Shown here in pieces: positions 20,710-52,143 of a stretch of 64,000 bases of DNA. Within the stretch, counting starts at the first letter, position 1. Each line of letters starts with the position of its first letter. The position numbers were made by a program, and so were the translations under genes. Below the pieces are notes generated by a model. It made no database searches. It was not told where the DNA came from and worked only from the letters and a program-made list of their open reading frames with translations. The DNA comes from Kiloniellales bacterium (lineage in GTDB: Bacteria; Pseudomonadota; Alphaproteobacteria; Kiloniellales; JAKSDN01), in assembly GCA_028280455.1 (NCBI GenBank), contig JANQLT010000039.1, positions 1 through 64,000 on the forward strand. Direction: 5' to 3'.

Positions 20710-20724
20710 CGGCAAGAGCTGCCG
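20710..20724. promoter_or_regulatory. Dyad GGCA-N5-TGCC upstream of flgF (proposed FlbD site)
   Basis: CGGCAAGAGCTGCCG, a 5-bp-arm dyad centred about 140 bases upstream of the flgF sigma-54 promoter, an enhancer-like distance. The same arms recur upstream of flgI, both flagellins and fliF. Confidence 0.55.
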
Positions 20725-20856
20725 CCGCCGCCCCGCCGCGCGCCTGGACGGCATCGGCGCGGCCGGCCGAGGCCGGCCGGCAAAGCCCCGGGTTTCCTCG
20801 GTTTGGCGCCGCGGCGCGGGCCTGGCGGCGGGGCGCGGCCCGGGGCGCCGTCCGCT

Positions 20857-20872
20857 TGGCACGGCCCCTGCA
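20857..20872 (+). promoter_or_regulatory. Sigma-54 promoter of flgF
   Basis: TGGCACGGCCCCTGCA: matches TGGCACG-N4-TTGCW at all but one fixed base, with the invariant GG and GC 12 bases apart. Predicted start about 20883, leaving a 50-base leader to the flgF ATG. Confidence 0.85.
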
Positions 20873-20932
20873 TCGGGTCCGGGCAAGCCACGCCGTGACA
20901 CCGGACAGCCAAGCCGAGGACCTGCCCGCCAG

Positions 20933-21652
20933 ATGGAAACAAGCGGTTACATCGCCCTCTCCAGCCAGATGGCCCTGCGCCAGCGCCTGGACGTCATCTC
21001 GCAGAACGTCGCCAACCTGAACACCAGCGGATTCAAGGGCGAAGACATGGTGTTCAGCGAGTTCCTCCAGGAGACCGAGGACGGCAAGACCCTGAGCTTC
21101 GTTGAAAACGTGGCCATGGTCCGCAACCTCAGCTCCGGCCCGCTGGCCCTGACGGCCAACGCCCTGGACGTGGCGATCCGCGGCGAAGGCTACTTCGGCG
21201 TCGATACGCCGCTCGGCGAGCGCTACACGCGGGCCGGCAGCTTCCGCCTGGACGGCGACGGCCGGATCGTCACCGCCGACGGCCACCCGGTGAAGAGCGA
21301 CGTCGGCGGCGAGATCGTCGTGCCGCCGGATTCCGGCGAGGTGGTCATCGCCCGCGACGGCACGGTCTCGGTGGAGACCGGCGAGCTCGGCCGCATCGGC
21401 GTGTTCCGCTTCGAGGACGAGACCCTGCTCGTGAAGACCGAGGCGCAGCTCTACGACCCCGTCGACCAGGTCGCCGAGCAGGTTCAGGACGCGACCGTCG
21501 AGCAGGGCATGATCGAAGGCTCCAACGTCCAGGGCGTCATCGAGATGACCAAGCTGATCGAGACGGTTCGCCGTTATCAGTCCGCGAACAAGCTGGTCGA
21601 GGACGAACACCGCCGGCAGCGCCAGATGCTCGAAGCGCTGGGCGGCAACTAG
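20933..21652 (+). CDS. flgF: Proximal rod protein FlgF
   Basis: Rod subunit connecting the proximal and distal rod. 239 residues, usual length. The N-terminal rod motif is NVANLNTSGFKGEDMVFSE, the central beta domain includes LDVAIRGEGYFGVDTP and YTRAGSFRLD, and the C-terminal helix has VQGVIEMTKLIETVRRYQSA. ATG at 20933. First gene of flgF-flgG-flgA-flgH under a sigma-54 promoter. Confidence 0.97.
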   Translation: METSGYIALSSQMALRQRLDVISQNVANLNTSGFKGEDMVFSEFLQETEDGKTLSFVENVAMVRNLSSGPLALTANALDVAIRGEGYFGVDTPLGERYTRAGSFRLDGDGRIVTADGHPVKSDVGGEIVVPPDSGEVVIARDGTVSVETGELGRIGVFRFEDETLLVKTEAQLYDPVDQVAEQVQDATVEQGMIEGSNVQGVIEMTKLIETVRRYQSANKLVEDEHRRQRQMLEALGGN

Positions 21653-21676
21653 TAGCGCGGGAAGGAACAGACCGAC

Positions 21677-22462
21677 ATGAGATCGCTCGACATCGCAGCC
21701 ACGGGCATGCTGGCACAGCAGCTCAACGTGGACGTGATCTCCAACAACATCGCCAACATGAACACCACCGGCTACAAGCGGCAGAGGGCCGAGTTTCAGG
21801 ACCTGCTCTACCAGAACCTGCGCCGGGTCGGCTCGGCCTCCTCGGAGGCGGGCACGGTCCTGCCCTCCGGCATCCAGCTCGGCGTCGGCGTCAAGCCGGC
21901 GGCCGTCTACCGCATGACCGGCCAGGGCGCGCTGTCGATCACCGACAACCCGCTGGACCTGGCGATCAACGGCCAGGGCTACTTCCAGGTCCAGCTACCC
22001 TCGGGCGAGACCGCCTACAGCCGGGCCGGCACCTTCCAGATCAGCGCCGACGGCGAGGTCGTGACCGCCGACGGCTACATGGTCCAGCCGGGCATCACCA
22101 TCCCCTCGAACGCCATCGGCGTCTCGGTCAACTCCAGCGGCCAGATCTCGGTGAACATCGACGGCCAGATCGTCGACCAGATCGTCGGCCAGCTCGAGCT
22201 GGCCACCTTCCCCAATCCCCCGGGTCTCGACGCCGTCGGCAAGAACCTCTTCCTGGAGACCACCGCCTCCGGCCAGGCCTCGACCGGCACCCCGGGCAGC
22301 GCCGGCTACGGCAGCATCGAGCAGGGCGCCCTGGAGGCGGCCAACGTCGACGTGGTGACCGAGATCACCAACCTGATCCGCGCCCAGCGGGCCTACGAGA
22401 TGAACTCGCGGGTGATCCAGGCCGCCGACGAGATGATGTCGAGCGTGGCGCAGCTCCGCTAA
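21677..22462 (+). CDS. flgG: Distal rod protein FlgG
   Basis: Distal rod subunit that forms the drive shaft through the P and L rings. 261 residues, near the 260 typical of the family, with MRSLDIAATGMLAQQLNVD, NIANMNTTGYKRQRAEFQDL, INGQGYFQVQLPSGETAYSR and the C-terminal RAQRAYEMNSRVIQAADEMM. Twenty-four bases after flgF. Confidence 0.99.
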   Translation: MRSLDIAATGMLAQQLNVDVISNNIANMNTTGYKRQRAEFQDLLYQNLRRVGSASSEAGTVLPSGIQLGVGVKPAAVYRMTGQGALSITDNPLDLAINGQGYFQVQLPSGETAYSRAGTFQISADGEVVTADGYMVQPGITIPSNAIGVSVNSSGQISVNIDGQIVDQIVGQLELATFPNPPGLDAVGKNLFLETTASGQASTGTPGSAGYGSIEQGALEAANVDVVTEITNLIRAQRAYEMNSRVIQAADEMMSSVAQLR

Positions 22463-22478
22463 GCGACGAGGCCGCAGG

Positions 22479-24256: not shown

Positions 24257-24285
24257 CCGGCTCGACAAGGAGCGGACAACGAAAG

Positions 24286-24315
24286 GCCCGGCCCCCGAAC
24301 GAGGGGCCGGGCTTT
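24286..24315 (+). terminator. Intrinsic terminator of the flgF-flgG-flgA-flgH operon
   Basis: Perfect 10-bp stem GCCCGGCCCC / GGGGCCGGGC around a 7-base loop, followed by TTT and a T-rich run (TTTCGTCTTTC), 30 bases after the flgH stop. Confidence 0.9.
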
Positions 24316-24393
24316 CGTCTTTCGACCGTCACTCGGCGCCCGGGGAACACCGTAAGGCTCGCCACTCCTGGACAATACGCAGAGAATACGTAG

Positions 24394-24845: not shown

Positions 24846-24901
24846 CCCGAAGACCGGAGAGATCAAAAGATCTCAGGAGACCGCCCAGCGGCGTCGGAAA
24901 C

Positions 24902-25459: not shown

Positions 25460-25876
25460 TCAGCCTCGGTACTTGGCGAGCTCGACGGCGGCCCGCAGCT
25501 CGATATCCGCAAGTAGTCGGGCCAGAGCGGGCTCCTCGACGGCCTCGCGCCGCTCGGCCAGAACGGCCGACAGCCGCTCCAGCTCGCCCCGCTCGATGGC
25601 GCCGGTCAGCAGGCCGAGCCTGATCTGCTCCAGGCTCTCGATCAGGTCGGCGCCCCGCTTGACGCTTCGCCGGCGCCGCTCCAGGGGGTCCCCGGTCTCC
25701 TGCAGGGCGAGGATCGAATCGATCCGGCCGAGGGTCACCGGCGGCGCGGCCGGCGCCGTCGGGCTGCTGGCCTGGCCGAGGACCCGCGCGAAGCCGCCGT
25801 TGCTCGGGGCTGAGCCACCGCGATCGCTCCGGCGCAGGGACCCCGAGCGGCCCGGGGACAAGGGATCGATCTTCAT
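25460..25876 (-). CDS. fliX: Flagellar assembly regulator FliX
   Basis: Trans-acting factor that couples basal-body assembly to the activity of the sigma-54 activator FlbD. 138 residues from the ATG at 25876: a disordered basic N-terminus, then IDSILALQETGDPLERRRRS, VKRGADLIESLEQIRLGLL and LLADIELRAAVELAKYRG, the last being the characteristic FliX ending. It is divergent from flgI, as in Caulobacter, with a perfect CtrA box in between. flbD is at 57030. Confidence 0.95.
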   Translation of the reverse strand: MKIDPLSPGRSGSLRRSDRGGSAPSNGGFARVLGQASSPTAPAAPPVTLGRIDSILALQETGDPLERRRRSVKRGADLIESLEQIRLGLLTGAIERGELERLSAVLAERREAVEEPALARLLADIELRAAVELAKYRG

Positions 25877-25923
25877 GCGTAACACGTGATGGGATCGGAA
25901 GCCCGACCATCGCAGCCGGCCCC

Positions 25924-25938
25924 TTAACAAGCGGTTAA
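25924..25938. promoter_or_regulatory. Perfect CtrA box upstream of fliX
   Basis: TTAA-CAAGCGG-TTAA matches the CtrA consensus TTAA-N7-TTAA at all eight positions. It lies 48 bases upstream of the fliX start codon in the fliX/flgI divergent region. Confidence 0.8.
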
Positions 25939-25952
25939 GCGGCGGCCGGACC

Positions 25953-25990
25953 GGGCACGAACTGCCCAGCGCCGCCGGCCAAGCTTGCCG
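25953..25990. promoter_or_regulatory. Two dyads upstream of flgI (proposed FlbD sites)
   Basis: GGGCACGAACTGCCC at 25953-25967 and the weaker CGGCCAAGCTTGCCG at 25976-25990, centres 23 bases apart (about two helical turns), 75-115 bases upstream of the flgI sigma-54 promoter. The first has the same GGCA-N5-TGCC arms as the sites before flgF, fliF and both flagellins. Confidence 0.5.
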
Positions 25991-26065: not shown

Positions 26066-26081
26066 TGGCACGGCATTCGCA
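26066..26081 (+). promoter_or_regulatory. Sigma-54 promoter of flgI
   Basis: TGGCACGGCATTCGCA: one mismatch to TGGCACG-N4-TTGCA, with invariant GG and GC correctly spaced. Predicted start near 26092 gives a 42-base leader to the ATG at 26134 and rules out a longer reading of flgI from 26023. Confidence 0.85.
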
Positions 26082-26133: not shown

Positions 26134-27309
26134 ATGAAGCGACCCGAGACCACTCGGCGAAAGGCCCGCCGACTCAGCGCCGCGCTGCGGCCGGGCGCGG
26201 CCCCGATGCTCGCCCTGCTGCTCGCCCTGCTGCCGCCCCTCTTCGCCGCCGAGCCGGCCGCCGCCCAGTCGCGGATCAAGGACATCGCCTCCTTCGAGGG
26301 CGTCCGCGACAACCTGCTGGTCGGCTACGGCCTGGTGGTCGGCCTGGACGGCACCGGCGACGACCTGGGCAGCGCCGTCTTCACCCGGGAGAGCCTGATC
26401 GGCGTGCTGCAGCGGCTCGGCGTCAACGCCCGCGACCCGGACCTCGACACCGACAACGTGGCGGCGGTCATGATCACCGCCAACCTGCCGCCCTTCTCGC
26501 GCCAGGGCAGCCGCATCGACATCTCGGTCCACGCCATCGGCGACGCCAGCAGCCTGCTCGGCGGCACCCTGCTGGTCACCCCGATGCTCGGCGCCGACGG
26601 CGAGGTCTACGCCGTGGCCCAGGGCTCGATCGCGGTGGCCGGCTTCAGCGCCACCGGCGCCGCCCAGAGCATCACCAAGGGCGTGCCGACCTCCGGACGG
26701 ATCCCCAACGGCGCGATCATCGAGCGCGAGCTGGGCTTCGAGCTGGAACAGCTCACCAGCGTCAAGGTCTCGCTGCGCAACCCCGACTTCACGACGGCCC
26801 GACGGGTGGCCCAGGCGATCAACGCCATGGCCGGCCAGCCGCTGTCGCGGCCCAGCGACCCGGCGACCGTCATGGTCACCGTGCCGCCGAGCTATCCGGG
26901 CGACACGGTCGGCCTGATCACCGACATCGAGCAGCTCACCGTGCAGGCCGACCAGGTCGCCCGGGTGATCATCGACGAAGCCTCCGGCGTCATCGTCATG
27001 GGCGAGAACGTGCGCATCAGCACGGTCGCCATCGCCCAGGGCAACCTGACCATCCGCATCACCGAGACGCCGCAGGTCAGCCAGCCCTCGCCCTTCTCCG
27101 AGACCGGCACCACGGCGATCGTCGACCGGACCAACATCGAGGTCTCCGAGGACGGCGACCGCCAGCTCGCGGTCCTGCCCTCCGGGGTCAGCCTGCAGGA
27201 GCTGGTCAACGGCTTGAACGCGCTGGGCGTCGGGCCGCGCGACATGATCGTCATCCTGCAGGCCATCAAGGCGGCCGGCGCCCTGCAGGCCGAGATCGAG
27301 GTGCTGTGA
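26134..27309 (+). CDS. flgI: P-ring protein FlgI
   Basis: Periplasmic P-ring subunit. 391 residues from the ATG at 26134, with a long signal region (MLALLLALLPPLFAAEPAAA) followed by the mature start SRIKDIASFEGVRDNLLVGY, GLVVGLDGTGDD, NVAAVMITANLPPFSRQGSR and a C-terminal LNALGVGPRDMIVILQAIKA. The stop TGA shares one base with the flgJ ATG. First gene of flgI-flgJ-flgN-flgK-flgL. Confidence 0.98.
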   Translation: MKRPETTRRKARRLSAALRPGAAPMLALLLALLPPLFAAEPAAAQSRIKDIASFEGVRDNLLVGYGLVVGLDGTGDDLGSAVFTRESLIGVLQRLGVNARDPDLDTDNVAAVMITANLPPFSRQGSRIDISVHAIGDASSLLGGTLLVTPMLGADGEVYAVAQGSIAVAGFSATGAAQSITKGVPTSGRIPNGAIIERELGFELEQLTSVKVSLRNPDFTTARRVAQAINAMAGQPLSRPSDPATVMVTVPPSYPGDTVGLITDIEQLTVQADQVARVIIDEASGVIVMGENVRISTVAIAQGNLTIRITETPQVSQPSPFSETGTTAIVDRTNIEVSEDGDRQLAVLPSGVSLQELVNGLNALGVGPRDMIVILQAIKAAGALQAEIEVL

Positions 27310-31706: not shown

Positions 31707-32213
31707 ATGCTGGAATCGAACGCTGCACGCGCAAGCACCCTGGACGACAAGGACGCCGAGACGGCGGAACGGGTCACGATCGAGACTCGCTTCGGCATCT
31801 TGGAGTTCGGTCCGGAAAACCGGCTCTTCATGCCGGTCGGGCTGCTCGGCTTCTCGGAGTATCGCCACTTCGGCCTGGCCGAGATGCCGCAGCCTGAGCT
31901 GGCCGACTTCCGGCTCATGCAGTCCCTGCAGGACGACAAGCTGAGCTTCATCGTCACGCCGATCAAGCTCGACGGCGGCGAAGTGGCCCACGAGGACCTG
32001 GAGGACGCCGCCCTCTCCGTCGGCGTGCCGGTCGACTCGGCCGCCTTCGTGCTGATCGTCACCATCCGCCCGACGGCCGACGGCAGCCACGTGACCGTCA
32101 ACCAGCGCGCGCCGGTGGTGATCGACGTCAACCGCGCCATCGCCCGCCAAGTGGTCATGGCCAACAGCAGCTACCCGATCCAGCAGCCGCTGCAGCTTCT
32201 CAGACAAGGTTAA
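31707..32213 (+). CDS. fliW: Flagellar assembly factor FliW
   Basis: Protein antagonist of CsrA: in Bacillus and Campylobacter it is sequestered by cytoplasmic flagellin, and when freed by flagellin export it binds CsrA and releases flagellin translation. 168 residues with the family core VTIETRFGILEFGPENRLFM, PVGLLGFSEYRHFGLAEM and LMQSLQDDKLSFIVTPIKLD; later VTVNQRAPVVIDVNRAIARQ. It has an N-terminal extension of about 20 residues. ATG with GAGGAG upstream and a sigma-54 promoter of its own. The partner csrA is at 8727. Confidence 0.93.
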   Translation: MLESNAARASTLDDKDAETAERVTIETRFGILEFGPENRLFMPVGLLGFSEYRHFGLAEMPQPELADFRLMQSLQDDKLSFIVTPIKLDGGEVAHEDLEDAALSVGVPVDSAAFVLIVTIRPTADGSHVTVNQRAPVVIDVNRAIARQVVMANSSYPIQQPLQLLRQG

Positions 32214-32269: not shown

Positions 32270-34561
32270 ATGAGCCAGGCCCAGAGAGCCCTTCGCGAGA
32301 CTTCCGACCAGAATCGCCAACAGCGCCGGCAGGCCAAGCGCCTGGCCCGCCGCGGCCTGAAGCGCGGGCTGGGCGGCCTGTCGCCGCTCGAGGCCGCCGA
32401 CCGGCAGCACCGCGCCGGCAACCTGGCCGAGGCCGAGACGCTCTACCGCCGGGTGCTCGACGAGGCCCCGGACGACCTGATCGCGCTCAGCCAGCTCGGT
32501 GCCCTCTGCGCCCAGACCCAGCGCTACGACGAGGCCGTGCCGCTGCTCGAGAAGGCCCTGGCGGTCGATCCGCAGCATGGCCCGACGCACATGAACCTCG
32601 GCGTCATCCACGCCGCCCAGGGCCGCGACGCGCAGGCCGACGCGAGCTTCCGCAGCGGCGCCGCGAGCGCGCCGGGCGATCCGGAGACCCAGAAGAACTA
32701 CGCCACCTGGTGCCACAAGCACGGCCGCCTGGAGGAGTCCGCCGCCGCGCTGGAGCGGGGCCTCGCCGCCGAGCCGCAGGATCTGGCCCGGCAAAGCCTG
32801 CTGGGTCAGATCTACGGCCAGCTCGGCGACCGCGACAAGGCGCGCCGCCGCTTCGAGCAGGCCCTGGCGCTCTTCCCCGAGGACGCCGAGCTTCATGCGC
32901 GGCTCGGCGCGCTGCTGGCGACCGGCGGCGACCCCAAGGCGGCCCTGCCGCACCTGGCGCGCGGCCTATCGCACATGGCGCAGTCGCGTCACTACAAGGC
33001 GCTCTTCCTCGAGGCTCTCGGGGCCATCGAGATCGAAAGCTACGACCCGGCCCTCGAGGCGGCCCTCTTGGCCTGCCTGGAGGACCCGAAGATCGAGGCG
33101 CAGCGCCTGAGCGCCGCCCTCGGCAGCACGCTCTGGCTGAAGTACGTGCGCGGCGCGAGCCTGCAGGACGGCAGCACCGGCAAGGGCCCGACGCTGCAGA
33201 TGGACGGGGTCCTGATCGACGCCGGCCTGCTGCGGCTGCTGCAGGACCTGGTCAACGTGAACCTCGGCCTCGAGGTCCTACTGGTGCCGCTGCGCCGGCT
33301 GCTGCTCTTCAAGATGCGCGAGAAGGCCGCCCAGATCCCGGAGATCAGGCGCTTCGTCGCGGCCTTCGCCATGCAGTGCCACGCCAACAGCTACATCTTC
33401 CAGACCAGCGAGCCGGAGCTGGCCGAGGTCGATCGGCTGCAGGCGGGCCTCGAAGCGCGCCTCGCCGCCCCGGTCGTGATCGATCCGGCCTTCGAAACCG
33501 AGATCGCTCTCTTCGCCCTCTACCGGCCGATCCATAGGCTCGACGGTTTCGCGTGCCTCTGCGCCCTGCCCGCCACGGCCTGGTCCGAGCCCATGCAGCC
33601 GCTGATCCGGCGGGCCCTGACCGAGCCGACGGAGGAGCAGAGACTCAAGACTGCGATCCCGCGCTTCGGGGCGATCGAAAACGAGGTCTCCCGTGCCGTG
33701 CGCGCGCAGTACGAGGACAACCCTTACCCGCGCTGGGTCTCGCTGCCGCAAACCGAGTCCGGTCCGCTGCAGGCCCTGGTCCGCGCCGGTGGCGTGGATT
33801 TCAGCGTGCCGGACGGCATCGATGAGAGCCTGAAGTGCCTGATCGCCGGCTGCGGCACCGGCCGGCATCCGATCTCGGTCGCCCTGGTGCTGCGCCATGC
33901 CGAGGTGACGGCCGTCGACCTGAGCCTCTCGAGCCTGGCCTACGCCAAGCGCATGGCGGCCCGCTACGACCTGGACCGGATCCGCTTCCTACAGGGCGAC
34001 CTGCTCGACGTCGGCGCCCTGGGCCAAGCCTTCGGCCTGATCGAGAGCATGGGCGTGCTGCATCACATGGCGGAGCCCGAGCGCGGCCTCGAAGCCCTGC
34101 TCGGCGTGCTGAAGCCCGACGGGCTCCTGCACCTCGGCCTCTACAGCGCGACGGCCCGCCAGGCGGTGCAGCGCGCCCGCGAGCGGATCGAGGAGCTCGG
34201 CCTCGACAGCTCGCCGGAGGCGATCCGCGACTTCCGCCGGCGGACCATCGTCGGCCAGGAGCCCGACATCCGCGACCTGGCCGGCATGGCCGACTTCTTC
34301 GACCTGGACAGCTTTCGGGACCTGGTGTTCCACGTCCAGGAGCACCAGTTCACGATCCCCGAGCTCGACGCGCTGCTGTCCCGACAGGGCCTGACCTTCC
34401 TCGGGTTCTCCGGCCTTCGGCGGCCGATCCAGCAGGCCTTCGCCGAGCGCTTCCCGCAGGACGGCGCGCAGCGCGACCTCGAGGCCTGGCACGGCTTCGA
34501 GGCCGACAATCCAGCGACCTTCCGCGGCATGTACAAGTTCTGGTGTCGACGAAAGGGCTAG
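32270..34561 (+). CDS. TPR protein fused to a SAM-dependent methyltransferase, copy 1
   Basis: 763 residues. A basic N-terminus (NRQQRRQAKRLARRGLKR) is followed by about five TPR units (residues 40-245; for example EAVPLLEKALAVDPQHGPTH), a helical middle part, the motif NPYPRW at about residue 484, and a class I methyltransferase fold with SAM motif I LIAGCGTGRHPISVAL, an acidic end of the next strand (VTAVDLSLSS) and IESMGVLHHMAEPERGL. The C-terminal part shares DFFDLDSFRDLVFHVQEH with the next gene. TPR-methyltransferases of this form often modify proteins or sugars. Placed between fliW and the flagellin gene, flagellin or its glycan is the obvious candidate substrate, but that is inference. 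Confidence 0.85.
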   Translation: MSQAQRALRETSDQNRQQRRQAKRLARRGLKRGLGGLSPLEAADRQHRAGNLAEAETLYRRVLDEAPDDLIALSQLGALCAQTQRYDEAVPLLEKALAVDPQHGPTHMNLGVIHAAQGRDAQADASFRSGAASAPGDPETQKNYATWCHKHGRLEESAAALERGLAAEPQDLARQSLLGQIYGQLGDRDKARRRFEQALALFPEDAELHARLGALLATGGDPKAALPHLARGLSHMAQSRHYKALFLEALGAIEIESYDPALEAALLACLEDPKIEAQRLSAALGSTLWLKYVRGASLQDGSTGKGPTLQMDGVLIDAGLLRLLQDLVNVNLGLEVLLVPLRRLLLFKMREKAAQIPEIRRFVAAFAMQCHANSYIFQTSEPELAEVDRLQAGLEARLAAPVVIDPAFETEIALFALYRPIHRLDGFACLCALPATAWSEPMQPLIRRALTEPTEEQRLKTAIPRFGAIENEVSRAVRAQYEDNPYPRWVSLPQTESGPLQALVRAGGVDFSVPDGIDESLKCLIAGCGTGRHPISVALVLRHAEVTAVDLSLSSLAYAKRMAARYDLDRIRFLQGDLLDVGALGQAFGLIESMGVLHHMAEPERGLEALLGVLKPDGLLHLGLYSATARQAVQRARERIEELGLDSSPEAIRDFRRRTIVGQEPDIRDLAGMADFFDLDSFRDLVFHVQEHQFTIPELDALLSRQGLTFLGFSGLRRPIQQAFAERFPQDGAQRDLEAWHGFEADNPATFRGMYKFWCRRKG

Positions 34562-34599
34562 GCAGCGCCCAGGCGCGTGCCCAACAGAGACAGGAAGCC

Positions 34600-36921
34600 A
34601 TGACCCAGCCATTGCCGATCGACCAGAGCAAGGCCAGACCGCTCAACCGCAAGCAACGCCGCCAGGCGCAGAAGCGGGCCAAGAGCCGTCAGGCGAAGGG
34701 AGCCGCGGCGACCGGCCTGCCGAGGGGCCCGGCCGACGACAAGCTCGACAAGGCGGCGCTGCACCACCAAGCCGGCGACTATGCCCCGGCCGAGGCGCTC
34801 TACCACGAAGCGCTCGCCCTCGACCCGGGGAACGCCACGGCGAGCTTCCGGCTGGGCTCGCTGCTGGCCCAGACCGGGCGCTATCAGGAGGCCCAGCCGC
34901 TGCTCGAACGCGCCCGGGAAGCCGCCCCGGACAACGTCCACATCCACAACAATCTGGGCGTGATCTACCGCGCCCTGGGCCAGAGCGAGCAGGCCGGCCA
35001 GAGCCTGCGCCGGGCCTACGAGATCGGCCGAGGCGACGCCGACGCCGCCAAGAACTACGGCTCCTGGTGCTTCGACGCCGGTCGCTTCGTCGAGGCCGTC
35101 GAGGCGCTCGAGCGGGGTCTGGCGATCGCGCCGAGGGACGCGCGCCGATGCCACGAGCTGGCCGTCGCGCTCTCCAACCTGGAGCGCTTCGAGGAGGCGC
35201 GAGTCCGCTTCGGGCAGGCCCTCGCGCTCGATCCCGGCAACGCGGAGATGTCGATCCAGCTCGGCGTCGCGCAGGCCGCGACCGGCTTCTGGGACGAGGC
35301 CTTTCCCAATCTCGCACGCGGTATCGCCGGCGGCTTCACCAAGCCCGAGTTCCAGATCTTCTTCGCCCGCGCGGCCACGCAGTCGCCGCTGGAGGACTAC
35401 GACGAGACCGTCGAGCGCGCCTTCATCGCCTGCTTCGAGAGCGAGGTCGCGGACCTCGGCAAGCTCGCCCTGCAGGCAGGCCGGCTCATCGGCCTGAAAT
35501 ACATGCAGAACTCGCGCGTGGAGCAAGGCCAAGCGGGCAACGGCCAGAGCACGATGCACCTGGACGGGATCCTCGGCGACCGGCTGCTCGTCCTCATGCT
35601 GCAGAAAACCGTGGCCAAGCAGATCGGCTTGGAGAACCTGCTCTGCCCGCTGCGCCGGGTGCTCCTGAAGAAGGCGCGCGGCCTCGCCGAGATCGGCGTC
35701 GAGCCGCTGCGCTTCATGGTCGCCTTCGCGATGCAGTGCCACCACAACAGCTACGTCTATAGCTGCGGCGAGGACGAACTGCGCGAGGCCGAGGAGGTGA
35801 TGCGGGCGCTGGCCAAGCGCCTCGGCCGAGACAAGTCGCCCGACACGCGCATGGAGATCGCGCTGGCGCTCTCGGCCATGTATCGGCCGCTGCACGACCT
35901 CGAGCACTTCGAGAAGCTGCTCGCCTTTCCGCTCGACGCCTGGTCCGAGGAGCTGCGGCCGCTGATCGAGCTGAGCCTGTTCAACCCGGCCGAGGAGCAG
36001 GATCTCAAGGCCGGCATCGCCAGCTTCGGTGCGATCGACGACGCCACCTCCCAGGCGGTTCGCTCCCAGTACGAGGAGAACCCCTATCCGCGCTGGAGCA
36101 CGATGCCCATGCAGCGGGCGCTCGGCTTCCCGGCATACCTCAAGATCAACTTCCCCTGGTTCGAGCCGCAGCCGGAGGCGCCGGAGGCGCCGAGCGTCCT
36201 GATCGCCGGCTGCGGCACCGGCCGGCACCCGATCGGCGTCGCCCGAGAGCTGCCGAAGGCGCAGGTGCTGGCGATCGACCTGAGCCTGGCCAGCATGGCC
36301 TACGCCAAGCGCATGGCACGGCGCTACGACGTCCGGAATCTCGACTTCCGGCACGGCGACCTGCTGCAAGTCGGCGCCCTGGGCCAGCAGTTCGACGTCA
36401 TCGAGTCGGTCGGCGTGCTGCATCACTTGCGCGAGCCGGAGGCCGGGCTCGCGGCCCTGATCGGCGTCCTCAAGCCCGGCGGCTACCTGAAGATCGGGCT
36501 CTACTCGGCCATGGCGCGCCGCTGGATCACGGCGGCGCGAGAGCGCGTCCGGGAACTGGGGCTGGAGCCGACGACAGAGGATATCCGGCAGTTCCGCCAA
36601 CGGGTCATCGGCGGCCAGGAACCGAACCTGGACCGCTACGTCGGCATGTCGGATTTCTTCGACCTGGACAGCTTCCGGGATCTCGTGTTCCACGTCCAGG
36701 AGCACTGCTTCACGGTCCCGCAGATCAAGGCGCTCCTGGAGCGCCACGGCCTGGTCTTCCTCGGCCTGCCGGAGACCAGCGCCAAAGAGCGGGATCTCTA
36801 CCGCGCGCTGTTTCCCGACGACGAGGAAATGCGCGACCTCGACCGCTGGCACGAGGTCGAGCTGGCCAATCCGGACTGCTTCATCTCGATGTACGACTTG
36901 TGGTGCCGCAAGCCGCTGTGA
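34600..36921 (+). CDS. TPR protein fused to a SAM-dependent methyltransferase, copy 2
   Basis: 773 residues from the ATG at 34600 (GGAAG upstream), a full-length paralogue of the preceding gene: basic N-terminus (LNRKQRRQAQKRAKSRQAK), TPR units at about residues 45-250 (YHEALALDPGNATASFRLGS), middle domain with FMVAFAMQCHHNSYVYS (copy 1 has FVAAFAMQCHANSYIFQ), NPYPRW, then LIAGCGTGRHPIGVAREL, AIDLSLASMAYAKRMARRYD and IESVGVLHHLREPEAGL. The two copies have diverged well beyond recent duplication, so both have probably been kept under selection. Followed by the flagellin control region. Confidence 0.85.
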   Translation: MTQPLPIDQSKARPLNRKQRRQAQKRAKSRQAKGAAATGLPRGPADDKLDKAALHHQAGDYAPAEALYHEALALDPGNATASFRLGSLLAQTGRYQEAQPLLERAREAAPDNVHIHNNLGVIYRALGQSEQAGQSLRRAYEIGRGDADAAKNYGSWCFDAGRFVEAVEALERGLAIAPRDARRCHELAVALSNLERFEEARVRFGQALALDPGNAEMSIQLGVAQAATGFWDEAFPNLARGIAGGFTKPEFQIFFARAATQSPLEDYDETVERAFIACFESEVADLGKLALQAGRLIGLKYMQNSRVEQGQAGNGQSTMHLDGILGDRLLVLMLQKTVAKQIGLENLLCPLRRVLLKKARGLAEIGVEPLRFMVAFAMQCHHNSYVYSCGEDELREAEEVMRALAKRLGRDKSPDTRMEIALALSAMYRPLHDLEHFEKLLAFPLDAWSEELRPLIELSLFNPAEEQDLKAGIASFGAIDDATSQAVRSQYEENPYPRWSTMPMQRALGFPAYLKINFPWFEPQPEAPEAPSVLIAGCGTGRHPIGVARELPKAQVLAIDLSLASMAYAKRMARRYDVRNLDFRHGDLLQVGALGQQFDVIESVGVLHHLREPEAGLAALIGVLKPGGYLKIGLYSAMARRWITAARERVRELGLEPTTEDIRQFRQRVIGGQEPNLDRYVGMSDFFDLDSFRDLVFHVQEHCFTVPQIKALLERHGLVFLGLPETSAKERDLYRALFPDDEEMRDLDRWHEVELANPDCFISMYDLWCRKPL

Positions 36922-37010
36922 ACGCCACGCCAAGACGTCGTGGTTAAGACCGACGAAAGGATATTTCTTGCCGTCGCCGATGCCGTACTGGGCAGAAATT
37001 GCCGCAAAGC

Positions 37011-37025
37011 CGGCAAAACTTGCCG
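37011..37025. promoter_or_regulatory. Dyad upstream of flagellin 1 (proposed FlbD site)
   Basis: CGGCAAAACTTGCCG, a dyad with six-base arms (CGGCAA / TTGCCG) 57 bases before the sigma-54 promoter. Single TTGCCG half-sites also occur at 36968-36973 and 36999-37004. Confidence 0.6.
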
Positions 37026-37081
37026 CGCAGTGGGCCATTGATTCCGGGCACAAGGCAAGAATTGCAGGGGGTTAGGAAGAT

Positions 37082-37097
37082 TGGCCCCGCTCTTGCA
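37082..37097 (+). promoter_or_regulatory. Sigma-54 promoter of flagellin 1
   Basis: TGGCCCCGCTCTTGCA: TGGC and TTGCA are exact and the GG-GC spacing is right; two differences fall in the less conserved -24 flank. Predicted start near 37108, giving a leader of about 94 bases. Confidence 0.85.
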
Positions 37098-37201: not shown

Positions 37202-39535
37202 ATGCCTCTTAATATCATCTCCAACTTTGCCGCCAACGTGGCGCACCGCAATCTGGCCATGTCAGACCGCGGTGCATCGGCCTCGGTCGCCAAGATCTCG
37301 GCCGGCTCGCGCGTTTTGGCGGCACGCGACGACGCCGCGGCCCTGGCCATCGGCTCCCGGCTCCGTGCCGAGGTTGCTGCGATGAAACAGGCCAGCGTCA
37401 ATGCCGGCCAGGCCGTGTCCATGCTCCAGATCGCCGACGGCGCGATGGCGCAGGTCAACGACACCCTGGTCCGCATGCAGGCCCTGAGTGTGCAGGCCGG
37501 TTCCGATCAGCTCGGCAGCGTCGAGCGGAGCCTGATCGACGCCGAGTTCCAGCAGCTGCTTCTCGAAGTCGACCGTATCGCGGCCGACACCGAGTTCAAC
37601 GGCCAGTCGCTGATCAGCGGCGGCACCCTGTTCAACCTGGTCCAGGCCTCCGACGCCGGCACCGACGGCTTCTCGAGCATCGCGTTCGATTCTTCCGTTA
37701 CCGGCTCCTCGGTCTTCCAGTACAGCTACGCCTCTTCGACCGAGACCCTGACGGTGACCAAGACGGCCGTCGACGGCACCCAGCTGAACACGGCCACCGG
37801 CGTGGACTCGACCAACTTCACGGACAACAACATCTCCGTGACGCTGGCGAGCGGTGTCGATCCGGACTCCTTCACCTACAGCTACGCCGAAGCGACGCAG
37901 CAGCTGACGGTGAACAACATCAACACCGGCGAGACCGCGACGGTCGACATCACCGACTCGTTCAATGCCGCCTTCGGCTCCTCGACCAACATCCTCACCG
38001 CCGGGCAGACGCTCGACGTCGAGTTCGCCTCCCTGGGCGTCACGGTCACCTTCGACCAGGGATTCGATCGGACTTCGGCTCTGTCGGTGGCCAACGCCGC
38101 GGCCACGCAGGCCTCGGCCAGTATTGCTGACGACACCAACGGCAACGGCACGATCTCCGCGATCTCCCAGGCCACGACCGGTGTCACCGCCAATGCGATC
38201 GAGGTCCTCAAGGCCCTCAACTCCGCCGGTGCCGCGGTCTACGACGCTGCTGCGGGCACCCTGACCTTGACCCTCAATCTGGGCGTCGCCGACACCATCA
38301 GCTTGAACGGCGGCAACCGGATCACCACGGCGTTCGGCAACTTCGACTTCAACGGCAACGCCAACGTGACCGCCGACGGCAACGCCGGCAACTTCACCCT
38401 CGACTTCGACGGTGTCAGCCTCTTCACGCTGACTCAGAACACCGATATCGACGGCGGCGGTGACGACACCGGCACCTTGACCGTGACGGTCGGCAACCTC
38501 TTCTCGAACGTGCAGAGCAACTCCGCTGGCTCGAACGAGACGGTGCAGATCGATCTCACCGACAACATCGATGCGGTGGCCGGGACCGGCAACAACCTGT
38601 CCTTCGACCAGACGCTCGATGTCGATGTCGAGCAGTTCGGCGTGACCCTGACCCTCGACAAGGGCTTCGACCGGACCAGCAACGTCACGACCACGACCGG
38701 TACCGTTACCGACAGCTCGACCTCGGTGACGGGCACCGACTCCTTCGCGGTCAACTCCGGCTTCCTGACGGCCGACGTCTACGATGCCCTGCTCAAACTG
38801 GGCTTCGACGCGGCCACCGGTGTCGGCTACAACGCCAATACCGGTGTCCTGACGCTGGGCACGACGGAAAGCACCTCCGGTAACGGCTCCGCCGTGTTGG
38901 ATGGTCTGGCCGGAATTCGCTACGACAACGGCGTCTCCGGTGAGGCGAGCTCCAACCTCGAGAACGCCACCAGCACCGTTGCCATCGGCCTGGTTCTGGC
39001 CAACGGCAGCACCGTCGATCTTGGCGACTACACGGCGGCCTTCCGCAACGCGGCTGCCAATGGCTCGACGGGCTCGGTCGGCATCCAGCTCGGCCGGGGC
39101 GTGTTCTACAATCAGGTGAACGCCAATGCCTCGAGCAACAGCTTCACCTTCAAGATCGGCACCGGCCAGGAGACCCAGGACAGCGTGACTCTCGAGCTCA
39201 ACTCGGTGACCACGCAGGCCTTGGGAATCAATGGTCTGGATACCACGACGTCGACCAACGCCGACACCGCCGCTGCGGCGATCTCTGGTGGTATCACGAC
39301 CTTGAACAAGGCCCGGGCCAACATCGGTGCGTCTCAGAACCGTCTCGAAATCGCCGTCTCCAACCTGGCGACTGCGACCGAGAATACTGAGGCCGCCAGA
39401 AGCGCCCTCTTGGACCTCGACGTGGCACAGGAAATCACGACCTTCACGTCGAAGCAGATCCTGGTCCAGGCTGGTGTCTCGATGCTGGCACAGGCCAACC
39501 AGCTGCCGCAGAACCTGCTACGTCTGCTGCAGTAA
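37202..39535 (+). CDS. Flagellin 1, very long
   Basis: 777 residues; most alphaproteobacterial flagellins are about 270-500. The conserved ends are clear: MPLNIISNFAANVAHRNLAM, SRVLAARDDAAALAIGSRLR and IDAEFQQLLLEVDRIAADTE at the N-terminus; TTLNKARANIGASQNRLEIA, VAQEITTFTSKQILVQAGVS and MLAQANQLPQNLLRLLQ at the C-terminus. The surface-exposed middle (about residues 165-620) is rich in Thr, Asn, Asp and Gly and contains two related modules at about residues 268 and 469, both ending in GFDRTS. ATG with AGGAGAG upstream, sigma-54 promoter, followed by flaG, fliD and fliS. Paralogous along its length to the flagellin at 44027. Confidence 0.97.
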   Translation: MPLNIISNFAANVAHRNLAMSDRGASASVAKISAGSRVLAARDDAAALAIGSRLRAEVAAMKQASVNAGQAVSMLQIADGAMAQVNDTLVRMQALSVQAGSDQLGSVERSLIDAEFQQLLLEVDRIAADTEFNGQSLISGGTLFNLVQASDAGTDGFSSIAFDSSVTGSSVFQYSYASSTETLTVTKTAVDGTQLNTATGVDSTNFTDNNISVTLASGVDPDSFTYSYAEATQQLTVNNINTGETATVDITDSFNAAFGSSTNILTAGQTLDVEFASLGVTVTFDQGFDRTSALSVANAAATQASASIADDTNGNGTISAISQATTGVTANAIEVLKALNSAGAAVYDAAAGTLTLTLNLGVADTISLNGGNRITTAFGNFDFNGNANVTADGNAGNFTLDFDGVSLFTLTQNTDIDGGGDDTGTLTVTVGNLFSNVQSNSAGSNETVQIDLTDNIDAVAGTGNNLSFDQTLDVDVEQFGVTLTLDKGFDRTSNVTTTTGTVTDSSTSVTGTDSFAVNSGFLTADVYDALLKLGFDAATGVGYNANTGVLTLGTTESTSGNGSAVLDGLAGIRYDNGVSGEASSNLENATSTVAIGLVLANGSTVDLGDYTAAFRNAAANGSTGSVGIQLGRGVFYNQVNANASSNSFTFKIGTGQETQDSVTLELNSVTTQALGINGLDTTTSTNADTAAAAISGGITTLNKARANIGASQNRLEIAVSNLATATENTEAARSALLDLDVAQEITTFTSKQILVQAGVSMLAQANQLPQNLLRLLQ

Positions 39536-43171: not shown

Positions 43172-43660
43172 ATGGATCGCAGCGCTCTAAGGACATACGG
43201 GACCCAGCAGGTCATGACCTCTTCGCCCGTGAAGCTGGTCGCGCTGCTCTATGACAAGGCCATCGTCTCCCTGCGCGAGGCGGTCGAGGCGATCGAAAGC
43301 GGCGACGTCCAGGCCCGCTGGAAAGCCAACAACCGGGCGACCGAGATCCTGACCCACCTCTGCACCACGCTCGACCACGAGTCCGGCGGCGATATCGCCC
43401 GCAACCTCCATCAGCTCTACCAGTTCATGCTGGGCCGGCTGTTCGAGGTCGACATGAAGAACGATGCCGCGGCGGCGCGCGAGGTCATCGGCCTGCTGGA
43501 GCCGCTGCGGGATTCCTGGCGCGAGCTCGCCGAGCAGACGCACGACAGCAGCCAGACCGTCCTGCCCCAGAGCCGCCCGTCCCTCGACACGGCGGCGCGC
43601 AAGGAGGCGCCCGGCGCCGACCATCCGCAGCCCAGCGAACCCCTCGACCTCTCCGCCTGA
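43172..43660 (+). CDS. fliS: Flagellin export chaperone FliS, copy 1
   Basis: Cytoplasmic chaperone that holds flagellin monomers before export. 162 residues: SALRTYGTQQVMTSSPVKLV, ALLYDKAIVSLREAVEAIES, and ARNLHQLYQFMLGRLFEVDM are classic FliS; the last 40 residues are a disordered tail. Downstream of fliD as in most genomes. A shorter, divergent FliS-like protein follows flagellin 2. Confidence 0.95.
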   Translation: MDRSALRTYGTQQVMTSSPVKLVALLYDKAIVSLREAVEAIESGDVQARWKANNRATEILTHLCTTLDHESGGDIARNLHQLYQFMLGRLFEVDMKNDAAAAREVIGLLEPLRDSWRELAEQTHDSSQTVLPQSRPSLDTAARKEAPGADHPQPSEPLDLSA

Positions 43661-43750: not shown

Positions 43751-43765
43751 CGGCACAAACTGCCG
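43751..43765. promoter_or_regulatory. Dyad upstream of flagellin 2 (proposed FlbD site)
   Basis: CGGCACAAACTGCCG, 108 bases before the sigma-54 promoter, with the same CGGCA / TGCCG arms and N5 spacing as upstream of flgF and an A-rich centre like the flagellin 1 site. Confidence 0.6.
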
Positions 43766-43872
43766 ATAGGTAACGCAGTCTTTGCCGCCCGCACCGGCGG
43801 CGAAACCGGGCCCCTCGCCGGCCTGATCTGAAAAACCTCCCATTTTCAATGGATTGGCGTCCCGCCGCCGAC

Positions 43873-43888
43873 TGGCACGGCGGTTGCT
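43873..43888 (+). promoter_or_regulatory. Sigma-54 promoter of flagellin 2
   Basis: TGGCACGGCGGTTGCT: an exact match to TGGCACG-N4-TTGCW. Predicted start near 43899. An in-frame upstream start at 43916 would be possible on this transcript but lacks any flagellin homology. Confidence 0.95.
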
Positions 43889-44026: not shown

Positions 44027-46357
44027 ATGCCTCTGACAGTCATCTCCAACTTCGCGGCCAATGTGGCGCATCGGAACTTGGCCAAGTCCGACATGGAGAC
44101 GACCCGATCGCTGACCCAGCTGTCCAGCGGTCAAAGGGTCGTCAGCGCGCGCGACGACGCCGCCTCGATGGCGATCGGCTCTCGGCTCCGCGCCGAAGTC
44201 GCGGCCCTGCAGGCCGCCCGGGTCAACGCCGGCCAGGCCGTTTCGATGCTGCAGATCGCGGAAGGCGCGATGGGTCAGGTCGACGGCATCCTGGTGCGCA
44301 TGAAGTCGCTGGCGATCCAGGCCGGCTCCTCGCAGTTCGGCAGCGTCGAGCGAAGCCTGATCGACGCCGAGTTCCAGCAACTGCTGCTGGAGATCGACCG
44401 CATCGCCCAGGACACGGAGTTCAACGGCGCCAACCTGCTGGACGGCGGCGAGGCCAGCGTCCTGCTCCAGGCCAGCGACCCGGTGAACGACGGCATCTCC
44501 AAGATCACCGTCGACTCCAGCGTCGATGCCGACTCGGTGTTCCGCTACAGCTACGACGCCTCCAACGAGATTCTCTCGGTCACCAAGATGGGCGTCAGCA
44601 ACGTCATCGAGAACCGGGCGAAGGAGCTGTTCGACCAGGCCAACATCGGCTTCTCCTTCGGCTCGACGGTCGCCGACAACGCCACCTTCTCCTACAGCTT
44701 CGACCAGGCGACCGACGCCTTCACGATCACCAACCTGCTGACCAGCGAGACCTCGACGCTCGATCTCACCTCGGTGGTCGAGCAGGCCTTCGGCGCCGGC
44801 GCGGCCGGCGGCCAGGTCCCGTCCGGACAGAGCCTGGACGTCGACTTCTCCTCGCTCGGCGTGACGGTCACCTTCGGCGACAGCTTCGACTTCTCCTCGT
44901 CGCTGACCGCCATCACCAGCGTCACCCAGACCAACGTCACGAACGGCAACGGCAGCGGCGTCGCCACCACCTACAACAGCGGCCTCAGCGACCAGGCGAT
45001 CTCGGTCCTGAGCGGCCTGCTGGCCAGCGGCACGGCCGGCCAGCTCGCCCTGGCCACCACCGACGGCGGCAACGGCAACGGCCAGGTCTTCGACGCCCTG
45101 GCCGGCGTCGCCTTCTCGGTCGACGGCGGCACGGTCGGCACCCTCGGCGCCGCGACCGCCGCCCTCGCCGACGGCAACCACACCCTGGGCGTCCACATCG
45201 ACGCCGACGGCGACGGCACAGCCGACACGCAAGTTGCAAACGTGACGCTCACAGGCATGGCCGACGCCCAGGGCAACGGCAACGTCACCATCGACTTCCG
45301 CCAGCGGCTTTCCAATACACAGACCGTGGAAGCACTGGACGACCAGCAGATCCAGCTCGACCTGACCAATAGGATCGACACCTTGGCCGGCACCGGATTG
45401 AACCTGCAGGTCGGGCAGGAGCTCGACATCGATATTCCGCAATTCGGCGTCCAGCTCACACTGGACAAGGGCTTCGACCGGACGGTCAGCCTGGCCAACA
45501 CGATCGGCTCGGCCAGCGACACGGCCGGAACCACCGTGGCCAACGCCGCCTTCACGCCCAACACCACCTTCCTGACCGCCGACGTCTACTCGGCGCTCCT
45601 GGGGCTGGGCTTCGACAACACGACCGGCGTCGGCTACGACCCCAATACTGGCCTGTTGCGCCTGTCCGTCTCCGACGACAGCTCGGCCAACGGTGCCGGC
45701 AACGTGACGCTCGACGGCAAGACCGGGCTCAGTTTCGGCTTCGGTGTCGGCAACCCGACCGGCGATCTCAACGGCAACGGCTCGACCGTCGACATCTCCC
45801 TGACCCTGGCCGACGGCAGCGCGGTCGAGCTCGGCACGCTGACCGCCGACTTCTCCAATGCCGGCAACAACGGCGGCACGGTCGGCCGCCAGGGCACGAT
45901 CGACATCCAGCTCGGTCGCGGCATCTTCGCCAACCAGGTCGACGCCAACGCGCTGATCAACACCTTCAAGTTCCGGATCGGCACCGGCGAGGCGGCCTCG
46001 GACGAGATCAACCTGACCATCGACTCCGTCAACACGACGGCGCTCGGCCTGGCCGGCGTCGATACCTCGACGGAGGAGAACGCCAACGCCGCCTCGGTGG
46101 CGGTGAGCAACGCGGTCACCGGTCTCAACCGGGCGCGCGCCAACCTCGGCGCCCTGCAGAACCGGCTGGACATCGCCTCCACCAACCTCGCCGTCTCCCT
46201 GGAGAACAGCGAGGCGGCCCGCAGCCAGCTTCTCGACCTCGACATGGCCCAGGAGATCACGAACTTCACCTCGAAGCAGATCCTCCTGCAGGCCGGTGTC
46301 TCGATGCTGGCCCAGGCGAACCAGCTACCGCAGAACCTGCTGCGACTCTTCCAGTAG
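44027..46357 (+). CDS. Flagellin 2, very long
   Basis: 776 residues, paralogous to flagellin 1 over the whole length. N-terminus MPLTVISNFAANVAHRNLAK, SARDDAASMAIGSRLRAEVA and IDAEFQQLLLEIDRIAQDTE; C-terminus VTGLNRARANLGALQNRLDI and MAQEITNFTSKQILLQAGVS. The middle carries the same two modules at about residues 266 and 462 (LDVDFSSLGVTVTFGDSFDF; LDIDIPQFGVQLTLDKGFDR). The ATG at 44027 with GCAGGAGAC upstream gives the N-terminus shared with flagellin 1; a start 37 codons earlier adds unrelated sequence. Followed by a second fliS-like gene. Confidence 0.97.
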   Translation: MPLTVISNFAANVAHRNLAKSDMETTRSLTQLSSGQRVVSARDDAASMAIGSRLRAEVAALQAARVNAGQAVSMLQIAEGAMGQVDGILVRMKSLAIQAGSSQFGSVERSLIDAEFQQLLLEIDRIAQDTEFNGANLLDGGEASVLLQASDPVNDGISKITVDSSVDADSVFRYSYDASNEILSVTKMGVSNVIENRAKELFDQANIGFSFGSTVADNATFSYSFDQATDAFTITNLLTSETSTLDLTSVVEQAFGAGAAGGQVPSGQSLDVDFSSLGVTVTFGDSFDFSSSLTAITSVTQTNVTNGNGSGVATTYNSGLSDQAISVLSGLLASGTAGQLALATTDGGNGNGQVFDALAGVAFSVDGGTVGTLGAATAALADGNHTLGVHIDADGDGTADTQVANVTLTGMADAQGNGNVTIDFRQRLSNTQTVEALDDQQIQLDLTNRIDTLAGTGLNLQVGQELDIDIPQFGVQLTLDKGFDRTVSLANTIGSASDTAGTTVANAAFTPNTTFLTADVYSALLGLGFDNTTGVGYDPNTGLLRLSVSDDSSANGAGNVTLDGKTGLSFGFGVGNPTGDLNGNGSTVDISLTLADGSAVELGTLTADFSNAGNNGGTVGRQGTIDIQLGRGIFANQVDANALINTFKFRIGTGEAASDEINLTIDSVNTTALGLAGVDTSTEENANAASVAVSNAVTGLNRARANLGALQNRLDIASTNLAVSLENSEAARSQLLDLDMAQEITNFTSKQILLQAGVSMLAQANQLPQNLLRLFQ

Positions 46358-46429: not shown

Positions 46430-46888
46430 ATGCTGCACCACTTCACCGAGGAGCGCCGCCAGGCCCTGGCCACCGCGAGGCCGGAGCAGGCCGTGGTGCT
46501 GGCCTACGACCAGGCCATCGAATGCCTGCACAAGGCGATCAGCGCGATCGCCCGCAAGGCCATCGCCGAGCGCTGCAATTCGACCACGGCGGCGATCGAG
46601 ATCCTCAGCGAGATGGTGCAGTGCCTGGAGCTCGAGGCCCTCGACGACATCGGCTACAACATCGCGCGCATCCATCGCTTCGTGATCGCGCGCCTGCCGC
46701 AGGTCAACCTCTACAACGACGCCAAGTTCGCGGCCGAGTCCGTGCGCATGCTGAGCGAGCTGCGCGACGCCTTCGCCGCCGTCGACCGCCAGAACAAGGC
46801 GGTGCTCGACGCCCAGCCCGAGATGCCGCGGGTGCCGCAGCCGGTCGCCGGCAAGGTCCGGCTCTCGCTGGTCCCACCCGTGGCCTAA
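46430..46888 (+). CDS. FliS-like chaperone, copy 2
   Basis: 152 residues with a FliS outline: EQAVVLAYDQAIECLHKAIS corresponds to the VALLYDKAIVSLREAV part of copy 1, and NIARIHRFVIARLPQVNLYN to ARNLHQLYQFMLGRLFEVDM. Much diverged from copy 1. It follows flagellin 2 directly, so each flagellin unit has a FliS-type gene; a dedicated chaperone for flagellin 2 is a reasonable inference. ATG with AAGGAGAG. Confidence 0.8.
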   Translation: MLHHFTEERRQALATARPEQAVVLAYDQAIECLHKAISAIARKAIAERCNSTTAAIEILSEMVQCLELEALDDIGYNIARIHRFVIARLPQVNLYNDAKFAAESVRMLSELRDAFAAVDRQNKAVLDAQPEMPRVPQPVAGKVRLSLVPPVA

Positions 46889-46918
46889 GGCCAACCCCAG
46901 CAGCGGACCAGGCAGGTC

Positions 46919-48649: not shown

Positions 48650-48677
48650 GCAGGCCCGGCGAAGGGAGCGACACGAC

Positions 48678-49364: not shown

Positions 49365-49442
49365 CGAGAGACAGCGCCGGACGGCCGGCACATGAGGATT
49401 ACCTGACGGTCAAGACGACCGCGAGCAAGGGGAGATCAAGGT

Positions 49443-51491: not shown

Positions 51492-51584
51492 GCCGATAGC
51501 CGGCGGGGGCTGGCGGTCGGTTCCTGGCAAGCAGGGGCCGGCCGCGTTCTTCTTTGCTTCTTGTTAATAGCGCTCAAGATATAC

Positions 51585-51599
51585 TTAATCGTTCAATAA
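51585..51599. promoter_or_regulatory. Candidate CtrA box upstream of sciP
   Basis: TTAA-TCGTTCA-ATAA (minus strand TTAT-TGAACGA-TTAA): seven of eight consensus bases at the right spacing, in an A+T-rich patch 83 bases before the sciP start. In Caulobacter sciP is itself a CtrA target. Confidence 0.5.
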
Positions 51600-51681
51600 A
51601 AACCGCAGCTTAGGTATTTGTAAAGGCGGCACGACTAACATCCCTACAGCACCGCGATTTCCGCTGTGGAGAGCAAGAATC

Positions 51682-51969
51682 GTGTCAGATACCCAAGGTA
51701 TGGCACCGAAAACGATCGGTCCGGCAGGTGAGCCGCTGACGATTAACGATCTGCCGCCGCCCAACACGAAGCGCTGGGTAATTCGGCGCAAGGCGGAGGT
51801 TGTCGCCGCCGTCCGCGGCGGCCTGATCAGCCTCGAAGACGCTTGCGAACGTTATACTCTCTCGGTCGAGGAGTTTCTCTCCTGGCAGCGTCTGATCGAT
51901 CGCCACGGCATGCGTGGCCTGCGCACCACCCGCCTGCAGCAGTACCGCCGGCCGATCGACGACGAGTGA
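51682..51969 (+). CDS. sciP: CtrA inhibitor SciP (DUF1153)
   Basis: Small helix-turn-helix protein that binds CtrA and blocks its transcription activation without removing it from DNA. 95 residues, the family size: LPPPNTKRWVIRRKAEVVAA, VRGGLISLEDACERYTLSVE and EFLSWQRLIDRHGMRGLRTT. GTG start at 51682 with GGAGAG upstream. Its position directly ahead of CtrA-boxed fliF is notable. Confidence 0.95.
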   Translation: MSDTQGMAPKTIGPAGEPLTINDLPPPNTKRWVIRRKAEVVAAVRGGLISLEDACERYTLSVEEFLSWQRLIDRHGMRGLRTTRLQQYRRPIDDE

Positions 51970-52110
51970 CCTCTTCGGGGCGCCCTCGGGTGCCCACCGC
52001 CCATCCTGCCGCCGGGACCTGAGCCGGCCGAAGCGCCTCCGGCGCCGCTGCCCGACTCCTCGCCCGGACTCCGGCGCTTCAACAAAAGCGGCAATATCTT
52101 CCCAGTGCTA

Positions 52111-52143
52111 GGCAGAAGCTGCCTGTCGTTAACGGGCGCTTTA
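52111..52143 (+). promoter_or_regulatory. fliF control site: proposed FlbD dyad next to a CtrA box
   Basis: GGCA-GAAGC-TGCC at 52111-52123 (flanked A...T) and, five bases on, TTAA-CGGGCGC-TTTA at 52129-52143, seven of eight bases of the CtrA consensus. In Caulobacter CtrA activates fliF and FlbD represses it through an ftr element at the same promoter, so this arrangement is what that model predicts. The rest of the 283-base gap 51970-52252 shows no gene. Confidence 0.65.

Follow-up and report, generated by a model that had tools for sequence, protein, structure and literature searches.

The flagellar control regions of a 64-kb stretch of DNA from a Kiloniellales bacterium (hereafter the window: positions 1 to 64,000 of contig JANQLT010000039.1, C240 in our numbering, from a 5.94-Mb draft genome) share an inverted repeat, the dyad GGCA-N5-TGCC. 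The window carries a large flagellar cluster, and we propose, with a probability of about 0.92, that FlbD, an NtrC-type activator whose gene lies at 57000-58418, uses the dyad as its operator. Comparison of sequences across genomes shows that the dyad is conserved, set in helical phase, held at a fixed spacing and found in step with FlbD; binding by FlbD itself and the direction of control are what we infer from these patterns. FlbD had been named as the candidate binder in the first-pass annotation of the window, and this assignment is strongly supported in the comparison by the co-occurrence of dyad and protein, by a conserved recognition helix and by the conserved position of the dyad at fliF and fliX/flgI.

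GGCA-N5-TGCC occurs seven times in the 64 kb against 2.01 expected, and 0 of 100 shuffles reach seven. Six of the seven matches fall in five flagellar control regions, those of flgF, fliX/flgI, flagellin 1 (two copies), flagellin 2 and fliF; the seventh (2103-2115) lies inside recA, as identified with Pfam. This control DNA amounts to 1,489 bp and holds six dyads where 0.05 would be expected from the genome rate of 198 in 5.94 Mb (Poisson p ~2e-11, uncorrected for the motif having been picked by eye). The first-pass annotation had given five 15-mers with the dyad, all of which are present where it placed them. All five regions are real, but one perfect copy had been overlooked, GGCAGAAATTGCC at 36991-37003, which lies 21 bp before the copy seen at flagellin 1. 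The weaker copy noticed beside the flgI dyad was also recovered with the matrix described below. The sites and genes concerned are as follows, with site scores from a matrix trained on other genomes only.

20697..20709, weak tandem partner of the flgF dyad, at a spacing of 14; score 4.4
20711..20723, FlbD-type dyad upstream of flgF, GGCAAGAGCTGCC; core match, score 12.8
20857..20872, + strand, sigma-54-like promoter of flgF; 11/12 consensus positions
20933..21652, + strand, flgF; Pfam rod/hook domains, name from the first-pass annotation and gene order
25469..25876, - strand, fliX, divergent from flgI; PF10768, E 4.4e-34
25925..25939, perfect CtrA-type box TTAA-N7-TTAA before fliX; 28 bp from the best dyad, in the fliX direction
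25954..25966, FlbD-type dyad between fliX and flgI, GGCACGAACTGCC; core match, score 15.0
25977..25989, weaker tandem copy at fliX/flgI, spacing 23; score 8.4
26066..26081, + strand, sigma-54-like promoter of flgI; 11/12 consensus positions
26134..27309, + strand, flgI; Pfam, start read from the sequence
36991..37003, FlbD-type dyad upstream of flagellin 1, GGCAGAAATTGCC; core match, score 21.0
37012..37024, FlbD-type dyad upstream of flagellin 1, GGCAAAACTTGCC; score 22.8, the best in the window, 21 bp from the 36991 copy
37054..37066, weaker third copy at flagellin 1; score 11.5, 42 bp from 37012
37082..37097, + strand, sigma-54-like promoter of flagellin 1; 10/12 consensus positions
37202..39535, + strand, flagellin 1, 777 aa; Pfam
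43752..43764, FlbD-type dyad upstream of flagellin 2, GGCACAAACTGCC; core match, score 15.9
43774..43786, weak tandem copy at flagellin 2, spacing 22; score 4.7
43873..43888, + strand, sigma-54-like promoter of flagellin 2; 12/12 consensus positions
44027..46357, + strand, flagellin 2, start codon at 44027; Pfam
52090..52102, tandem partner of the fliF dyad, one mismatch in the core, GGCAATATCTTCC; score 14.7, 21 bp from 52111
52111..52123, FlbD-type dyad at fliF, on the upstream side of the CtrA box, GGCAGAAGCTGCC; core match, score 16.5
52129..52143, + strand, CtrA-type box at fliF with one mismatch, TTAACGGGCGCTTTA; 18 bp downstream of the dyad start
52253..53959, + strand, fliF; Pfam
57000..58418, + strand, flbD; NF050807, 776.6 bits against a cut-off of 750, start likelier at 57030 (MRLLIVG)

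A genome-wide scan, which had been suggested as a check, gave a divided answer: the bare core is hardly enriched overall, with 198 matches against 170 for the reversed pattern, yet it shows the excess in flagellar control DNA given above. The poor overall enrichment speaks in favour of an alternative reading, that the dyads are chance palindromes in G+C-rich DNA. That alternative is hardly credible, being contradicted by the conservation of the dyad before the same genes in many families, by its exact spacing from CtrA boxes and by its helical phasing. The low enrichment means that the context carries the meaning, and the core alone is therefore unusable as a genome-wide predictor. A more restrictive pattern derived from the window sites, GGCANRANYTGCC, has 31 genome-wide matches, of which six are in the window. 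Their coding status was judged with a codon-usage score trained on window genes, on which values below -40 are clearly non-coding. The five window sites having a locus score -61 to -87, the sixth being without a locus; among the 25 matches outside the window, three are clearly non-coding and six more score between -2 and -27. None of these three non-coding matches stands beside a flagellar gene, their Pfam-matched neighbours being MltA, phasin and Rieske/TetR.

We ranked all 4,352 dyads (256 half-sites by 17 spacers) in upstream sets taken from other genomes. GGCA-N5-TGCC came first upstream of fliX (21 of 29 loci), upstream of fliF (17 of 27) and upstream of fliF in named genomes (39 of 59); in these three sets the mean counts from first-order simulations are below 0.5, and the reversed sequences give 1, 0 and 0. 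In the flagellin set, 11 of the 30 upstream regions contain it, which ties it for the top with its own register-shifted form. The fliX set was made of the best 30 matches, reduced to 29 by leaving its own locus (L102) out of training and counts; the flagellin set holds 30 loci out of many flagellin places listed; and the named fliF set holds 59 of 80 loci, 12 having no fliF start in the locus and nine (L271-L279) not being counted as FlbD orthologues. Some near-identical genomes recur across the named, diverse and relative sets. The matrix, built from 107 sites with none from the window's genome, has an A/T-rich centre and leans to the core, since the core was required when its sites were collected. 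It places the six window dyads within the window's top seven, the remaining site being the tandem partner at 52090, and a 108-site matrix gives the same ranking. Two records in the comparison, titled Bordetella and Anaerolineae (L201 and L243), carry alphaproteobacterial flbD loci and are probably mislabelled metagenome bins.

The ranking in other genomes was the ground on which the chance reading was rejected, together with the reading of the dyad as a degenerate or decoy sigma-54 promoter resembling GGCAC...TTGC. GGCA and TGC are common to both elements, but the dyad has a spacing of 5 where the -24/-12 elements have 7, and GGCA-N7-TGCC occurs in only 0/29 fliX, 0/27 fliF, 3/30 flagellin and 1/59 named fliF regions. 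In addition, no sigma-54-like site was called at fliF with the threshold applied, and we regard a decoy promoter as scarcely tenable. The sigma-54-like sites were called with a 12-position consensus, so that promoter here denotes a consensus match. Four of the dyads had been described as lying at enhancer distance from sigma-54 promoters, and this arrangement holds: the sigma-54-like sites begin 133 (flgF), 99 (flgI), 57 (flagellin 1) and 108 bp (flagellin 2) past the dyad's last base. Sites of this kind are fairly frequent, however: eight score at least 10 on the two strands of the window, these four among them.

The dyad often occurs in tandem. Among 155 non-redundant regions, which include 18 from the set of relatives and the window, a site is present in 129, and 45 hold at least two. 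Of the 48 spacings between neighbouring sites, 20 fall at 21-23 bp (21 being the commonest) and 10 at 30-33 bp, the rest including 39-43, 53-54 and 63-65 bp. A phase test at 10.5 bp gave R 0.69 with p ~1e-10, a value that treats the pairs as independent when they are only partly so. In the window the spacings are 21, 42, 23, 22 and 21, with 14 at flgF, and three weaker partners score only 4.4 to 8.4.

The co-occurrence of dyad and protein could be followed through the genomes searched. That flbD and fliX are both encoded in the window, as had been annotated, is borne out by the FlbD score, which exceeds the NF050807 equivalog cut-off, and by the PF10768 match of FliX, whose gene is not the 164-residue open frame at that place; the latter runs in another frame and matches no Pfam or NCBIfam family. 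Among 30 diverse FliX-bearing genomes, the 27 with FliF all have a close FlbD, and the three without FliF (G082, G115 and G116) have no close FlbD; one of these, G116 (locus L092), is rated 100% complete and has FliX with a nearby dyad. FlgI is present in 8 of 62 FliX-negative genomes. Five of these (G065, G069, G079, G113 and G160), flagellated but FlbD-less, score no higher than 375 bits against the 750 cut-off of the FlbD model, and the dyad was found neither at flgI nor upstream of fliF in them. G123 has only a partial FlgI and no FliF. In G106, where FlbD is present but FliX has no match, the fliF upstream region retains a perfect dyad. When a matrix was trained on fliX and flagellin sites only, it recognized fliF sites in 23/27 and 55/59 FlbD-bearing loci and in 0/30 loci of the order of G079, a contrast weakened by the fact that these 30 loci represent one family and that FlbD absence is established for G079 alone.

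The 10-residue recognition-helix stretch of FlbD is identical in 107 of 111 sequences, the other four being loci that end inside the gene. This bears on the possibility that the dyad is bound by another enhancer-binding protein, such as NtrC, NtrX or a TacA-like protein, with FlbD as a bystander. Further NtrC-family proteins are indeed encoded in this genome and in most genomes searched, but the FlbD-less flagellated genomes keep NtrC-family proteins without the dyad, and the three NtrC-like rows seen have recognition helices (GLNRNTLRKK or GINRNTLRKK) that differ from that of FlbD; we consider such a binder unlikely.

Besides the narrow base of the comparison with the order of G079, several observations weigh against FlbD as the reader of the dyad. 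A perfect dyad is missing from 19 of the 30 flagellin upstream regions, and the matrix finds no site in 4/27 and 4/59 fliF regions or in 5/29 fliX regions of FlbD- or FliX-bearing loci. No perfect core was found at fliF in the Caulobacteraceae loci L203-L207, no dyad in the short flgI locus of G106, and no perfect dyad at fliF or flgI in G185, whose FlbD-like protein (595 bits) is below the cut-off. A clade with an intact FlbD helix (L247, L248 and L123/L153 of G192) has no fliF site by the matrix. G192 keeps the dyad at fliX (L096), which perhaps represents a natural loss of the fliF feedback alone.

At fliF, the dyad stands in one of two registers relative to a CtrA box, given here as the offset from dyad start to box start. 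In 96 non-redundant fliF regions, the box precedes the dyad in 41 (exactly -25 in 35 of those) and follows it in 42 (+17 to +20 in 40 of those), while five have a dyad but no CtrA box and eight have no site; this classification used set offset ranges, allowed two mismatches and settled ties to 25 and 18. A count free of the tie rule, taking every box that has no more than one mismatch and lies up to 60 bp from the best dyad, gave 24 at -25, 33 at +17 to +20 and 10 at 38-40, the last peak being one tandem step further. From a set of 20 regions, L336 (9 bases) was excluded; G022 was classified as type A with a doubtful box. The -25 type is found in Caulobacter, Brevundimonas, Bradyrhizobium (boxes with two mismatches), Roseibium and Devosia, and the +17 to +20 type in the window, Azospirillum, Thalassospira, Pelagibius and Kiloniella. 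The fliF promoter of Caulobacter segnis has a one-mismatch core at the -25 place; no perfect dyads were found in six rod/hook loci of this species, one-mismatch copies being present in two (L317 and L321). In Devosia-type fliF promoters (L217, L222, L233 and L261), the CtrA box is flanked on either side by FlbD-type sites. The two registers need two changes on a quick tree of 111 FlbD rows, which is unrooted with many weakly supported deep branches and on which 98 rows are labelled A or B and 13 others are uncounted. Before fliX, 16 regions (the window included) have both dyad and box, and in 9 of them the box comes 28-30 after the dyad; the window has a perfect box at 28.

In the window, the fliF offset is +18, and the dyad ends 5 bp upstream of the CtrA box. 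The first-pass annotation was thus right that its fifth dyad adjoins this box, at a place where Caulobacter FlbD represses, but the dyad lies on the upstream side, versus downstream in the Caulobacter relatives, and the repression mechanism of Caulobacter FlbD is therefore not simply transferable. The fixed distance at fliF, and often at fliX, would also suit a dyad that belongs to the CtrA circuit and is read by CtrA itself or a co-factor such as SciP. We consider this very improbable, as the same dyad stands before sigma-54-type flagellin promoters and is absent from the FlbD-less flagellated genomes examined (compared by FlbD content only).

We suggest that the Fis-type helix-turn-helix dimer of FlbD recognizes GGCA in each half-site, the two being separated by a 5-bp centre that is usually A/T-rich. 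The sigma-54 promoters of flgF, flgI and both flagellin genes would each be activated by a FlbD dimer, or several in phase, seated 57-133 bp before the promoter. FliX is known in Caulobacter to gate FlbD until the basal body is built, and here it would probably hold back activation by FlbD until the early basal body is in place. Because the operator keeps a fixed distance from the CtrA box before fliX and fliF, FlbD could feed back on CtrA-driven early genes. At fliF of the window, FlbD would sit just upstream of CtrA, and the gap of 5 bp makes hindrance of CtrA its likeliest action, co-activation being also possible. The -25 register would place the dyad on top of the core promoter, provided that the -35 region is covered by the CtrA box, and this would fit repression by occlusion. 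We tentatively propose, with somewhat less than even confidence, that the fliF operator moved across the CtrA box (two changes between rigid registers) and that in lineages of the upstream type, that of the window among them, FlbD governs the early flagellar genes through CtrA itself, by exclusion or co-binding, with a mechanism, and possibly a sign, unlike Caulobacter repression.

Other genes of the window deserve mention. Both flagellins are unusually large (777 and about 776 residues), and each has a FliS gene further down the cluster (43172-43660 and 46430-46888). Two TPR-plus-methyltransferase proteins encoded just before flagellin 1 (32270-34561 and about 34560-36921) are candidates for flagellin modification, and a FliW gene at 31707-32213 suggests FliW-CsrA control of flagellin translation. 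On the minus strand, at 1056-6277, recA adjoins the gene of a PAS hybrid histidine kinase with a receiver domain, CckA-like by its make-up, for which CckA is a candidate name. Also on the minus strand, a 1,527-residue open frame without a Pfam match (11071-15654) lies between fliP and the fliM/fliL group.

FlbD sites are themselves familiar as the ftr elements. Passages of PMC3930126 describe FlbD acting at ftr4 of Caulobacter fliF, with activator and repressor roles, and these passages and others in PMC7064773 treat FlbD activation at sigma-54 promoters and feedback on CtrA-driven genes as Caulobacter biology. FlbD sites are credited to Fumeaux et al. in an excerpt of PMC12421884, and an excerpt of PMC2890560 mentions an unpublished result, the loss of the polar flagellum in flbD mutants of Rhodospirillum centenum; this agrees with FlbD serving flagella beyond Caulobacter as well. 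Neither a class-wide GGCA-N5-TGCC consensus nor the pair of registers turned up in the literature searched, which did not extend to the primary ftr and Fumeaux papers, and the consensus may be in print; a letter-pattern search of papers for the dyad returned a single one, on MftR. The Caulobacter-specific FlbD elements would become a candidate class-wide operator with a simple consensus, which would make FlbD regulons predictable in unstudied alphaproteobacteria. At the top of the flagellar cascade, CtrA (cell cycle) and FlbD (flagellum assembly) would be coupled by a fixed geometry built in two different ways, which makes the evolution of the feedback directly testable by promoter swaps.

The dyads resemble the ftr elements that FlbD binds in Caulobacter crescentus, among them ftr4 at fliF, in their FlbD partner, in their place at flagellar sigma-54 promoters and at fliF, and in that a one-mismatch core adjoins the fliF CtrA box of C. 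segnis. They differ in having perfect cores and a fliF site upstream, not downstream, of the CtrA box, the comparison with ftr having been one of role and position. Enhancer sites of the NtrC family are dyads for Fis-type helix-turn-helix domains, and like them the element is an inverted repeat before sigma-54 promoters, here tandem and helically phased as expected for an HTH_8 dimer. Unlike those sites, it has GGCA as its half-site, and the recognition helix of FlbD departs from those of the three NtrC-like rows.

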